Shown: piece by piece, positions 33,002 to 48,836 of the stretch | How the letters are laid out: every line of letters begins with the position of its first letter | Numbering within the stretch: position 1 is the stretch's first letter | Origin: Limosilactobacillus avistercoris | GTDB taxonomy: Bacteria > Bacillota > Bacilli > Lactobacillales > Lactobacillaceae | Assembly (NCBI RefSeq): GCF_014836425.1 | Contig: NZ_JACSQW010000006.1 | Location: 1 to 64,000, forward strand | Length of the DNA stretch: 64,000 nt | Reading direction: 5' to 3' | Notes under the pieces: generated by a model | What the model saw: the letters and a program-made list of their open reading frames with translations, nothing else | What the model was told of the DNA's origin: nothing | Database searches by the model: none | Made by a program: the position numbers and the translations under genes

Positions 33002-35668
33002 ATGAAAGAGAAATATCAATTAACTACGACTGAGTTGAAGAAAGAATTTAACTTAACGGACTTTACTCAAGGTTTAAGTGACGCAACGGTGAGGCAAAAG
33101 CTCGCTGAAGACGGCCGGAACGTCCTTGAAGTAAAGCCAACGCCAAAGTGGAAGATCTTTCTTCGCCAATTTAACAACATTGTGATTTATATCTTGTTAG
33201 TGGCAACCCTACTGACCGTAATCATTGGCCACTACACGGACGCCATCGTTATTGGTGCTGTGGTGATCTTGAATTCCCTCATCGGGTACTTCCAGGAAAC
33301 TAGTGCGGCCAATGCTTTAGCAAAAATCAAGGAAATGATGGCTAACCAAGCAACGGTTTACCGTGATGGCAAGCGGCAAGATATTGACGCTGCGGACCTG
33401 GTAGTTGGGGATGTTGTCTTCCTTGAAGCCGGGGATAATGTCCCAGCTGACTTACGGATCGTTTCTGCAGATAACTTGAGAATTGAGGAATCTGCTTTAA
33501 CTGGAGAAACCAATTCAGTGATTAAGGCTGATGAGGCCCTCACTGATAATGACGTTCCGTTGGCTGACCGGGTTAACATGGCTTATGCCTCAACTTCCGT
33601 AACTAGCGGGAGTGGTCTAGGTGTTGTAGTGGCAACGGCTGAACAAACTGAAATTGGGAAGATCTCCCAAGAAGTTGCCCACATTAAACCAAAGAAGACC
33701 CCACTGACAAAAGAAATCGATCACGTTGGGACCGTGGTTTCCTACATTACCATCACTACGTCAATTATTGTCTTCATCGTTGGTTTCATGTTGAAGATTT
33801 ACTCATTACCAGCATTAGCTCTTGCGGTTGTAGCAATGCTTGTTGGTGCTATTCCTGAAGGTCTTCCAGCAATTACCTCTGTAATTCTGGCATTCGGGAT
33901 TAGTAAGATGGCCAAGTTGTACAAGACAATCATCAAGTCAATGCCAGCGGTTGAAACTCTTGGTTCGGTCGACGTTATTGCGACTGATAAGACCGGGACG
34001 TTAACCAAAAACGAAATGACAGCGACCGAACTATGGGTTGGCGATCAGCTTTACCAAGTTTCAGGAACCGGCTACGCACCAAATGGTGAAATTAAGCTTG
34101 GCGGTAAAAAAGCACCACTCACTGAGCAATTGAAGCTCTTCGTGGAAGCCGGTTATCAAGCTAACGATACCGTTTTGAGTGAAAATGATGGTGCATGGCA
34201 CATTAACGGTGAACCGACTGATGGGGCCTTCTTAACGCTTTACCACAAGGCATACGGGCCTCAGCACAAGTCACAATATTCAGAAATTGACTTGCTACCG
34301 TTTGATTCTGACTACCGGTACATCGCTGAATTAACAGAAGATCAAGAAAGCCATAAAAAAGTAATCTTTATTAAGGGATCTCCAGATAAGTTATTTGAAA
34401 TGGCCCAAAAAGAAGATCCTAACTTTGACCTTGCAAAGTGGCAAAAACGGGTTAATAACTGGTCCAGTGCTGGTAAACGGGTGATCGCTGTTGGTTACCA
34501 ACCAGTGCCAAAAGGTGAAAACTTAACCGAAATTGAACACGACCACCTGTACCGCGGAATCAAGTTGCTTGGATTGGCTGCCCTTCTTGATGCACCACGG
34601 GAAGAAGTTATTGAAGCCCTCAAGAAGATGAATACTGCTGGTGTTCACGTTAAGATGATTACTGGTGACGATCCACAAACAGCACGGGCAATTGGTAAAG
34701 AACTAGGATTAACTAACGGTCCAATCAATGCCATTACTGGTGCTGAATGGGACAAGTTATCAAGCAAGGAACGGGAATCCGTAGCATTAAACACGCAAGT
34801 CTTTGCCCGGACAACTCCACAAAACAAGCTTGAAATCATGGAAGCTCTGCAAAATCAGCAACAGGTTACCGCTATGGTTGGTGACGGGGTAAACGATGCC
34901 CCAGCATTGAAGAAAGCTGACATTGGGGTAGCAATGGGAATCAAGGGAACCGACGTTGCTAAAGATGCAGCGGATATGATTCTCGGTGACGATAACTTTG
35001 CAACGATGGCTGCCGTAATCAAGGAAGGTCGGCGGATCTATGACAATATCAAGAAGAGTATCCTCTTCCTTCTACCGACATCCTTTGCCGAAGGGTTAGT
35101 TGTTGCCTTCTCAATTTTGACTGGTCAACAGGTACCTCTTCAACCTGCACAACTATTGTGGATTAACTTAATTGCCGCCATCACAATCCAATTCGCCTTT
35201 GTCTTTGAAAAGGCAGAGGACGGGATCATGGAACGGTCTCCACGGCCAATTACTCAACGCCTAATGAACCGCCACGACCTCTTCCAGATGGGATACGTTT
35301 CCGCATTAATGGCTATCTTCGCCTTAATCGGTTACGAATGGTTCATCCGCGCTGGTGCTAGCGAAATTAGTGCTACTACGATGATGGTTAACACAATCGT
35401 TATTAGTAAAATCTTCTACTTCTTCAGTATCCGGACTGAACAGTATGGTTTAACGCAAATTAACGATATTAGTAAAAATGCCTGGGGCGTAATTGGATTG
35501 ATGGTGATCTTCCAACTAATCCTAACTTACGTACCATTCATGCAAGCGGCCTTCCACGTTACAGGAATTAGCCTCGTTGAATGGGGTGCCGTAATTCTCT
35601 TCTCCTGCTTGATCATGATTTTCACTGAAGGAGACAAGTGGATTCGCTTTAGAACAAAAAAGGCTTAA
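33002..35668 (+). CDS. Cation-translocating P-type ATPase (P2 type)
   Basis: 888 residues with the full plan: N-terminal cation_ATPase_N region, TGE actuator loop (LTGETNSV), helix-4 motif PEGLPAIT, phosphorylation site DKTGTLT, nucleotide domain with KGSPDK, hinge TGDDPQTA and GDGVNDAPAL, and a six-helix C-terminal part. The PEGLP motif points to the SERCA/PMCA-like branch. In helix 6 the usual 'NLVTDG' calcium ligands read NLIAAI, and helix 5 has SFAE for NVGE. A calcium specificity is therefore doubtful. Met at 33002 is chosen for its AGGGGAG site. A longer frame would add 16 residues. Confidence 0.85.
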   Translation: MKEKYQLTTTELKKEFNLTDFTQGLSDATVRQKLAEDGRNVLEVKPTPKWKIFLRQFNNIVIYILLVATLLTVIIGHYTDAIVIGAVVILNSLIGYFQETSAANALAKIKEMMANQATVYRDGKRQDIDAADLVVGDVVFLEAGDNVPADLRIVSADNLRIEESALTGETNSVIKADEALTDNDVPLADRVNMAYASTSVTSGSGLGVVVATAEQTEIGKISQEVAHIKPKKTPLTKEIDHVGTVVSYITITTSIIVFIVGFMLKIYSLPALALAVVAMLVGAIPEGLPAITSVILAFGISKMAKLYKTIIKSMPAVETLGSVDVIATDKTGTLTKNEMTATELWVGDQLYQVSGTGYAPNGEIKLGGKKAPLTEQLKLFVEAGYQANDTVLSENDGAWHINGEPTDGAFLTLYHKAYGPQHKSQYSEIDLLPFDSDYRYIAELTEDQESHKKVIFIKGSPDKLFEMAQKEDPNFDLAKWQKRVNNWSSAGKRVIAVGYQPVPKGENLTEIEHDHLYRGIKLLGLAALLDAPREEVIEALKKMNTAGVHVKMITGDDPQTARAIGKELGLTNGPINAITGAEWDKLSSKERESVALNTQVFARTTPQNKLEIMEALQNQQQVTAMVGDGVNDAPALKKADIGVAMGIKGTDVAKDAADMILGDDNFATMAAVIKEGRRIYDNIKKSILFLLPTSFAEGLVVAFSILTGQQVPLQPAQLLWINLIAAITIQFAFVFEKAEDGIMERSPRPITQRLMNRHDLFQMGYVSALMAIFALIGYEWFIRAGASEISATTMMVNTIVISKIFYFFSIRTEQYGLTQINDISKNAWGVIGLMVIFQLILTYVPFMQAAFHVTGISLVEWGAVILFSCLIMIFTEGDKWIRFRTKKA

Positions 35669-35683
35669 ATAACTAACAAATTT

Positions 35684-35724
35684 AAAAGTTGTGAGATGAA
35701 AAATTTCATTTCACGACTTTTTTA
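35684..35724 (+). terminator. Terminator of the P-type ATPase gene
   Basis: AAAAGTTGTGAGATGAAA (35684-35701) pairs with the segment from 35704 to 35721 with two G-U pairs, followed by a T-run. Confidence 0.85.
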
Positions 35725-35745: not shown

Positions 35746-35774
35746 TTGCCAAATTAATTTTCTAATGGTATTCT
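35746..35774 (+). promoter_or_regulatory. Promoter of the serine leader and SteT-like permease
   Basis: TTGCCA (35746-35751), a 17-base spacer and TATTCT (35769-35774) preceded by TGG. Transcription would start near 35781, about 28 bases before the leader ORF. Confidence 0.65.
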
Positions 35775-35808
35775 AAGAAACATCAAGTACACGGAAGGAG
35801 AAAGTTCA

Positions 35809-35874
35809 ATGTTAGTATTCTTTAACCAATTGCAACAATCTTCCTCCTCAGCCTCTAACTCTATTCGGGGCTGA
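35809..35874 (+). CDS. Serine-rich leader peptide ORF
   Basis: A 21-codon ORF with a strong AAGGAG site 8 bases upstream. It begins MLVFFNQLQQ and continues SSSSASNS, giving six Ser codons (TCT, TCC, TCC, TCA, TCT, TCT) among eight, then IRG and TGA. It is followed by a hairpin overlapping its Ser codons and stop, an antiterminator and a strong terminator, all before a serine/threonine-type permease. This is the layout of ribosome-mediated attenuation. Translation and function are inferred. Confidence 0.75.
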   Translation: MLVFFNQLQQSSSSASNSIRG

Positions 35875-35973
35875 GTGATTTTAGTGTACCTATAAGACGG
35901 TTTAATGTAGTGCCGGGTCCACTTAATCATTTGGCAGCTTCCAGATGATTAAGATTAGACCCGGCTTTTATTA
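35847..35973 (+). promoter_or_regulatory. Attenuator with competing antiterminator and terminator
   Basis: Pause hairpin: 35847-35855 with 35867-35875 (nine pairs). Antiterminator: 35867-35873 with 35935-35941, continued by 35876-35886 with 35920-35929. Terminator: GCCGGGTC 35912-35919 with 35958-35965, inner TTAATCAT 35923-35930 with 35945-35952, then TTTTATT. A ribosome stalled on the Ser codons would block the first hairpin and favour the antiterminator. One finishing at the TGA would cover 35867-35886 and let the terminator form. Confidence 0.75.
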
Positions 35974-36000
35974 TGCCGATTTTGAATTGGAGGAATGGCG

Positions 36001-37332
36001 ATGAATAATCAACCAACAGATGAATTAAAACGGTCGTTAGGTTTTTGGTCGGCAATTTCGATTGTCGTAGGGACAATTATTGGATCTGGGATTTTCTTTA
36101 AGCAGGGTTCAGTCCTTGATAGTGCCGGCACATCAACCCTCGCCATTGCCGCTTGGGTATTTGGTGGGATTATTACCTTAACTGGTGGTCTAACTATTGC
36201 TGAAATTGGTGCCCAAATGCCATACACCGGGGGGCTTTACGTTTATATTGAGAACCTCTACGGAAGAATTCTCGGTTTCTTAGCCGGCTGGATGCAGGTA
36301 ATCGTGTATGGCCCGGCAATTATCGCATCAGTTGCTGGGTTTATGAGTATCTTAATGGCGAACTTCTTTGGCCTCGGGACTGAATGGCGAATCCCACTGG
36401 CAGTAATTACCGTTCTCGCAATCGGGATTATGAACCTTTTTGAAAACAAGGTTGGGGCAATCTTCTCCATCATCACGACTGCCGGAAAGATGATTCCCAT
36501 CGCGGCAATTATCATTTTTGGGTTAATCTTTGGGGACCAACACGCCTTTGGACAAACCGTGACTGAAGTTCAACATGCTACTGGTGGCTTTGGTGTCGCC
36601 GTTCTCGCCACCCTCTTTGGTTATGATGGTTGGATCTTAATCGCTAACCTTGGTGGAGAAATGAAGAATCCACAAAAGCTACTCCCTAAAGCGATCGTTT
36701 TGGGGATTACCGCTGTCTTGGTAATTTACACCCTAATCACAATCGGAATTCTCAAATTCTTGCCAGCTAACTTAATCCACCGTCTTGGTGAAAATGCGAC
36801 TGCCTACCTTGCAACAAAGGCTTTTGGTGCAATCGGTGGAAAGCTTCTCTCGGCCGGAATCATTATTTCAATGATGGGGACACTAAATGGAAAAATGATT
36901 ACTTTCCCCCGGATTGTTTATGCAATGGCACGCCGTGGTGATCTACCATTCTCGCGTTTTCTTTCGTTCGTTACACCAAAAGGAAAGTCACCCGTTGTTG
37001 CCACGCTATTCATTGTTGTCTTGGCTACTATGATGATGTTCTTCTTTGATCCCGACCACCTTTCGGATCTCTGTGTCTTCACTGTTTACTGCTTCTATCT
37101 CTTGGCATTCTTCGGAATATTCATCCTGAGAAAGAAAAATAAGGGACCACGCCCCTTCAGTACCCCGCTTTACCCAATTATGCCAATCATCGCAATTGGT
37201 GGTGGGATCTTTGTTCTCGTTAGTGAACTTTTCAATGATCCAGCAGGTGTCCTGCTTTTCATTGGGATCGTAATTGTTGGATTACCAATCTTGTACCTCG
37301 TTAAACGGATGGACCAACGTAGGATGGGATAA
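36001..37332 (+). CDS. SteT-like serine/threonine exchanger (APC/LAT family)
   Basis: A 443-residue permease with twelve predicted helices. GTIIGSGIFFKQGSVL in helix 1, GGLYVYIENLYGRILGFLAGW, and FGYDGWILIANLGGEMKNP match the bacterial LAT group that includes SteT, a serine/threonine antiporter. The serine specificity is supported by the Ser-rich leader upstream but is not proven. The ATG at 36001 lies 8 bases after GGAGG. The ATG two codons earlier is too close to the site. It ends at a convergent terminator shared with the pot operon. Confidence 0.82.
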   Translation: MNNQPTDELKRSLGFWSAISIVVGTIIGSGIFFKQGSVLDSAGTSTLAIAAWVFGGIITLTGGLTIAEIGAQMPYTGGLYVYIENLYGRILGFLAGWMQVIVYGPAIIASVAGFMSILMANFFGLGTEWRIPLAVITVLAIGIMNLFENKVGAIFSIITTAGKMIPIAAIIIFGLIFGDQHAFGQTVTEVQHATGGFGVAVLATLFGYDGWILIANLGGEMKNPQKLLPKAIVLGITAVLVIYTLITIGILKFLPANLIHRLGENATAYLATKAFGAIGGKLLSAGIIISMMGTLNGKMITFPRIVYAMARRGDLPFSRFLSFVTPKGKSPVVATLFIVVLATMMMFFFDPDHLSDLCVFTVYCFYLLAFFGIFILRKKNKGPRPFSTPLYPIMPIIAIGGGIFVLVSELFNDPAGVLLFIGIVIVGLPILYLVKRMDQRRMG

Positions 37333-48541: not shown

Positions 48542-48564
48542 AATAAACAACAATTTAATTATTC

Positions 48565-48836
48565 GATCGCAATGAGAAAGAAGAGTAAATTAGCGATAGC
48601 CATTAGCGAGTCTCGTTAGGTGGAAGGAGACAGGTTCAACGTTAATCGAAAATCACTTTCGAGCTTAAGTCTTAATTCATAGTAAGACTTAATGGTAGCA
48701 CCCATTAACGTGCCAGCGTATCGCCCAGTCCCGGGCCGTACGTGTAAGGTATTATCAGTAATGATGATACGAAGATAGGGTGGTACCACGCTCGAGCGTC
48801 CCTTAACCAAAGTAATTTTGGTTAAGGGACTTTTTT
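48565..48836 (+). ncRNA. T-box riboswitch, isoleucine specifier
   Basis: Stem I carries the AGAGTA/GAAA specifier-loop elements, bounded by GAAAG/CTTTC below and ATTAGCG/CGTTAAT above. The specifier triplet is ATC (48652-48654), an Ile codon. The antiterminator core is TGGTACCACG (48781-48790). The terminator pairs GTCCCTTAACCAAA (48799-48812) with 48818-48831 and ends in a T-run. Uncharged tRNA-Ile would promote read-through into brnQ. Confidence 0.92.

Follow-up and report, generated by a model that had tools for sequence, protein, structure and literature searches.

A predicted serine-codon attenuator upstream of a LAT-type permease gene in Limosilactobacillus, with candidate relatives re-coded for other amino acids

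Leader-peptide attenuation is a classical mode of bacterial gene control, and the trp, his and thr attenuators of enterobacteria each combine a leader ORF carrying tandem control codons with three alternative pairings between RNA segments (1:2, 2:3 and 3:4) and an intrinsic terminator. T-boxes are regarded as the usual link between genes and tRNA charging in Bacillota. Attenuation by leader peptides has been shown or predicted in Firmicutes for leucine and histidine (PMC5794164, PMC2965389, PMC9413887). The Leu-rich attenuator found at the Staphylococcus aureus ilv-leu operon is an example of this kind of control in a Gram-positive organism, where it responds to leucine (and Ile) and governs biosynthetic genes (PMC5794164). 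His leader peptides are predicted upstream of Bacillus hisS*/hisZ and of the his operons of the B. cereus group and other Firmicutes, which concern a different amino acid, different genes and different lineages from those treated here, and for the his genes of Lactobacillales it is T-boxes, not leader peptides, that have been reported (PMC2965389, PMC9413887).

Two other systems respond to serine starvation or to Ser-tRNA charging. The serine-codon sensor of B. subtilis SinR resembles the system described below in that serine starvation is detected through slow UCN codons, but it acts on the translation of SinR itself and involves neither a leader ORF nor a terminator (PMC3862929). The serine T-box of Paenibacillus polymyxa serA couples Ser-tRNA charging to the terminator of a serine gene, but the RNA binds the tRNA directly and no leader is translated (PMC8002221).

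Here we describe a leader RNA in a 64,000-nucleotide stretch of Limosilactobacillus avistercoris DNA (hereafter, the window) that very probably functions as a ribosome-mediated transcription attenuator, sensing Ser-tRNA charging and turning on a downstream permease gene when charging is low. It shares the anatomy of the enterobacterial attenuators noted above, and differs from them in its predicted response to serine, in preceding a transporter gene rather than a biosynthetic operon, in its occurrence in Lactobacillaceae, in possessing an additional closing helix (P1), and in the apparent reuse of its scaffold with other control codons. No Ser or Asn leader peptide, and no Thr leader peptide from Lactobacillaceae, was found in Rfam or in the open-access literature searched (subscription journals and preprints lay outside this scope), and we provisionally regard the Ser leader and its re-coded family as undescribed.

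Architecture of the leader and its proposed mechanism

The P-type ATPase gene located upstream (ORF end at 35668; all window coordinates refer to the plus strand) has its own terminator, composed of a 17-bp stem and a T tail (35684-35721), and therefore the leader begins its own transcript. A promoter with an extended -10 element (TTGCCA, a 17-nt spacer, and TATTCT with a TG extension; 35746-35774) predicts a transcription start near 35781, and a comparison of upstream regions reveals that TTGCNN and TGNTATTCTAA are kept 5' of most orthologous leaders. A Shine-Dalgarno (SD) sequence, AAGGAG (35795-35800), which is likewise present 5' of the leaders in orthologues, lies eight bases ahead of the ATG of a 21-codon ORF (35809-35874) encoding MLVFFNQLQQSSSSASNSIRG. 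Codons 11 through 18 (35839-35862) read TCT TCC TCC TCA GCC TCT AAC TCT, such that six of eight specify serine, exactly as the initial annotation had claimed for this ORF and its ribosome site. Thus a short, translated-looking ORF with a ribosome site resides near the start of the transcript. The gene that follows (36001-37332) is preceded by the SD sequence GGAGG (35989-35993), and its start is most likely the ATG at 36001, 7 nt past GGAGG, rather than the in-frame ATG at 35995.

Three hairpins or helices described previously for this RNA can be drawn as follows. The P2 hairpin, expected to serve as a pause or anti-antiterminator structure, comprises 9 bp between its 5' arm (segment 1; 35847-35855), which lies within the Ser codons, and its 3' arm (35867-35875), within which the leader ORF ends. 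Segment 2 (35867-35880) includes this 3' arm together with the 5' strand of an antiterminator (35870-35880), whose 11-bp core is completed by segment 3 (35925-35935), a strand that is shared with the 5' arm of the terminator. The terminator itself (segments 3 and 4; 35912-35965) begins thirty-odd bases beyond P2, and is formed by pairing of GCCGGGTC (35912-35919) with GACCCGGC (35958-35965) around an inner stem of 13 bp (35922-35934/35941-35953); a U tract (35966-35969) comes next. Its predicted stability of -32.6 kcal/mol (z = -8.9 relative to shuffled sequences) identifies it as an intrinsic terminator situated ahead of the first gene. These folds had been described as mutually exclusive. 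This holds for the antiterminator, which excludes both of the others, whereas P2 can coexist with the terminator.

Our analysis also revealed a helix that the initial annotation did not include. P1 is formed by GUACAC (35787-35792), just 5' of the leader SD, and GUGUAC (35884-35889), and it encloses the whole leader ORF; it was identified in the window by folding, and covarying partners are present elsewhere. P1 and P2 are nested, and P1 crosses the antiterminator; we infer that P1 promotes termination and restricts renewed initiation at the leader ORF.

If this architecture operates as predicted, then a ribosome translating the leader when serine is plentiful would pass the Ser codons, reach the stop codon and leave. 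Segments 1 and 2 would then pair to form P2, probably aided by P1, and segments 3 and 4 would pair to terminate transcription ahead of the permease gene. With Ser-tRNA in short supply, the ribosome would stall at the first Ser codons and mask segment 1, and the resulting pairing of segments 2 and 3 would block the terminator and permit production of the serine-type permease. Leader translation, stalling and read-through are each predicted from sequence here. The first Ser codon is located 9 nt 5' of the TCA in segment 1 in 40 of 44 leaders, and as a result a ribosome stalled there would mask segment 1. When the stretch occupied by such a ribosome is blocked in silico, an RNA truncated before the terminator is complete folds as the antiterminator. 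Once the leader RNA is complete, the terminator is the more stable fold at any ribosome position, and so the switch must presumably be kinetic, or timing-dependent, as is usual for attenuators.

Conservation of serine codons and of alternative pairings

The alignment of orthologous upstream regions, which had been proposed as a check on the serine-attenuation reading, revealed that Ser codons are kept and that stems covary. A permease-based search of relatives yielded upstream regions from about 150 loci, and 44 leaders were aligned at the TCA (codon 0) that lies in frame within the P2 arm. Serine occupies codons -3, -2, -1, 0 and +2 in 40, 41, 42, 44 and 41 of these leaders, respectively, whereas the N-terminal half of the peptide drifts. 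Codon +1, which is locked within the P2 arm, encodes Ala, Thr, Ser or Val. The persistent Ser residues are encoded by both TCN and AGY codons (TCC 93, TCT 82, TCA 66, AGT 20, AGC 14), and the leader from species LL6 carries nine consecutive Ser codons (TCA TCA AGT TCC TCC TCA AGT TCT AGT). Among seven close relatives, third positions account for 7 of the 11 variable leader sites, and 6 of the 8 variable codons are synonymous, compared to an expectation of 24%. Tandem codons for one amino acid are therefore conserved as that amino acid.

UCN codons make up 88% of the Ser codons in leaders (pooled codons that are not independent of one another) versus 59% in the genes of the window. In B. subtilis undergoing serine starvation, ribosomes are slowed at UCN codons and not at AGY codons (PMC3862929). 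Part of the bias may instead come from structure, such as the pairing of CUUCCUCC with the leader SD.

This latter pairing raises the prospect that the Ser codons are kept merely as pyrimidine-rich RNA, wherein UCUUCCUCC pairs with the leader SD and P1 and P2 constitute a thermosensor-like or protein-binding structure. The lowest-energy fold does pair the SD with the pyrimidine-rich stretch, and P1 is a covarying helix that adjoins the SD. However, leaders that lack CCUCC retain serine through AGY codons (for example, TCA TCT AGC TCA AGT TCC and TCA TCC AAC TCA AGT TCC), and serine is also recurrent at codons +2 to +4, which fall outside the SD pairing. Moreover, apparently homologous leaders (see below) carry runs of ACN (Thr) or AAT (Asn) in place of the pyrimidine-rich codons. 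We consequently consider this explanation very improbable.

Comparative data also support the RNA pairings that attenuation would require. Segment 1, the partner of segment 2 in P2, overlaps the control codons, and at the variable positions 5, 6 and 7 of P2 the pairing is kept in 42-43 of the 44 leaders by several pair types each. This covariation exceeds that of all 500 shuffles, and sliding the P2 strands relative to each other reduces pairing from 98% to 27-46%. For the antiterminator, native strand combinations among 23 clades give -14.2 kcal/mol versus -12.2 kcal/mol when strands are swapped, with none of 20,000 permutations performing as well. Thus the alternative 2:3 pairing that excludes the terminator is supported comparatively, and the fold of the window antiterminator on its own is only modestly better than shuffled sequences (z = -1.9). 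The same own-versus-swapped test applied to P1 likewise gave 0 of 20,000 permutations as good, but P1 is less certain than the antiterminator because the stretch searched in a few clades took in untranscribed promoter bases. Clear covarying versions of P1 are formed by AAUGCCAA and UUGGCAUU in ingluviei and faecipullorum, and by GCGUC and GACGC in the MRS253 strain.

Loss of the Ser codons with retention of the terminator, a pattern that would speak against the proposed logic, was looked for and was not found: a terminator lies directly before the gene in all 27 leader-bearing orthologous loci checked. Terminator-like scores were obtained for 7 of 31 leaderless loci, and in the clearest inspected cases (L205 and L196) these look like terminators of the upstream gene. 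Leaderless orthologues have generally lost both leader and terminator. The arrangement is more than a chance occurrence, judging from its preservation across species, the synonymous codon changes and the covarying stems. With Ser codons and terminator conserved, and with P2 and the alternative pairing covarying, the serine-attenuation logic put forward in the initial annotation appears well supported.

The associated permease and the distribution of Ser leaders

The product of the regulated gene belongs to the APC fold family (PF13520, 9e-58), and its nearest relatives include the human LATs and BasC, the nearest solved structure (1.7e-82); its best NCBIfam match, TIGR00911, falls below the cut-off for that family. 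BasC is an alanine-serine-cysteine exchanger (PMC6472337), and by homology we predict that serine is a transported substrate of this LAT-type permease. The earlier assignment to a serine/threonine exchanger group thus stands at the family level, with serine transport itself a prediction. The window genome has no serC gene; counting that genome, 39 of the 50 Limosilactobacillus genomes lack serC, and therefore serine must largely come from uptake or from another route.

Most Limosilactobacillus species have a Ser-run leader ahead of the orthologous permease, and such leaders are also found in Lactobacillus jensenii, johnsonii, psittaci, corticis, hamsteri, agrestimuris and others. A covariance model of the Ser leader (R1) has matches of this type in about 35 of 50 Limosilactobacillus genomes. 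Ser leaders fall into a single group, with a few losses, on the permease tree, and several Limosilactobacillus lineages lack the leader. In one complete genome (L008; G017:C1, near 1469745), the promoter and leader are missing and the permease ATG immediately follows the upstream gene's stop codon. Paralogous permeases (about 38-42% identical) in the genus and in other families of the order have no Ser leader upstream. At L060 and L061, a 38%-identical paralogue lies immediately 3' of a threonine-dehydratase-like gene; the sequence ahead of the paralogue contains a hairpin and a T-run, but no Ser leader. No leader was found upstream of LAT orthologues in genera of Lactobacillaceae outside Limosilactobacillus, Lactobacillus and Weissella, and a search of the wider order with R1, whose filters lose weak matches, returned nothing outside Lactobacillaceae.

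T-boxes are widely used in lactobacilli. One occurs within this same window, and serine T-boxes are known (PMC8002221), and so a T-box or another riboswitch might sense tRNA or serine directly at the leader locus, with the ORF being incidental. Searches of Rfam at curated and permissive thresholds found no family at this locus, and the T-box covariance model was not matched, nor is any T-box sequence present. The leader ORF is also conserved as a coding sequence. We judge direct sensing of this kind to be extremely unlikely, and again favor a translated leader, for which no leader-peptide family in Rfam (such as the Thr leader) scored above the Rfam threshold. The only T-box in the window (48563-48806; 107 bits) is an ordinary one that is followed by a gene for a BrnQ-like branched-chain amino-acid permease, and its presence means that T-box control and predicted leader-peptide control coexist in one genome.

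Candidate relatives with other control codons

R1 has a second match site in most genomes of the genus, including that of the window. There, on the minus strand (L268; G000:C52:28834-29003), a homologous, Thr-rich leader (LTSTSTTTTTTVVEYL) with alternative stems and a terminator precedes a gene for an APC permease. Among NCBIfam models this permease best matches the threonine/serine transporter ThrP, with a score below the cut-off of that model. The leader peptide is MLSQYSIIQSLTSTSTTTTTTVVEYL, and its run consists of Thr codons throughout apart from TCC and a structure-locked TCA, which encode serine. Thr-rich leaders with a ThrP-like permease are also present in the g22, g30, g35 and g39 genomes, and a model built from the Thr leader (R2) recovered Thr versions (for example, NTTTTTSTTTI and ITTTSTTTIIG) 5' of the same type of permease in five genera. 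Other APC permeases of the window genome have no leaders beyond the Ser and Thr examples.

Upstream of LAT permeases in Weissella are leaders with runs of Asn (MIWNVNNNNNNNDNL..., MFDFINNNNNNRL...), of Asp/Asn or of Ser/Thr. Asn- or Asp/Asn-run leaders occur at L163, L224, L315, L225 and L227, most of them with strong antiterminator pairing, and in the Asp/Asn leaders P1 and the antiterminator both pair strongly (z = -4.0 and -5.2). Ser/Thr leaders (L317, L320, L321, L322 and L323) are located 5' of another LAT permease paralogue in these genomes, and two paralogues within one Weissella genome can differ in their leader residues. The 2:3 pairing is unconvincing in L317, L320 and L322, which we therefore treat as weaker members.

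Their common anatomy suggests that these scaffolds share an ancestor, with the Weissella RNAs being candidate homologues of the Ser leader. We think it rather likely that Lactobacillaceae possess a family of homologous attenuator RNAs, defined by the P1 closing helix, an in-frame C|UCA anchor in segment 1 and a UGAGUGAUUU-like segment 2, that has been re-coded solely through its control codons: Ser with BasC-like permeases, Thr with ThrP-like permeases, and Asn or Asp/Asn with Weissella LAT permeases. The leader would then report the cargo of the transporter. The scope of this regulation appears wider than initially described, in that the same scaffold is seen with Thr and Asn codons. Conversion from Ser to Thr requires only one base change per codon (UCN to ACN).

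These relatives also bear on whether the leader might instead encode an arrest peptide, or a general sensor of translation slowdown akin to the erm and cat leaders, with no specificity for serine. Any stall on the leader ORF would indeed favor the antiterminator. However, the peptide sequence 5' of the Ser run is unconserved, unlike that of arrest peptides, and the control residues track the transporter family, with Ser accompanying the BasC-like permease and Thr the ThrP-like permease. We therefore assign this possibility a low likelihood, and retain attenuation in response to the charging of a specific tRNA as the preferred reading.

In common gut and food lactobacilli, serine and threonine uptake is apparently controlled through translated leaders, beside T-boxes in the same genome. 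The apparent re-coding of one scaffold amounts to a natural experiment on how the specificity of an attenuator changes. Finally, leader residues may offer a sequence-based means to predict the substrates of amino-acid permeases, which are hard to assign by homology alone.
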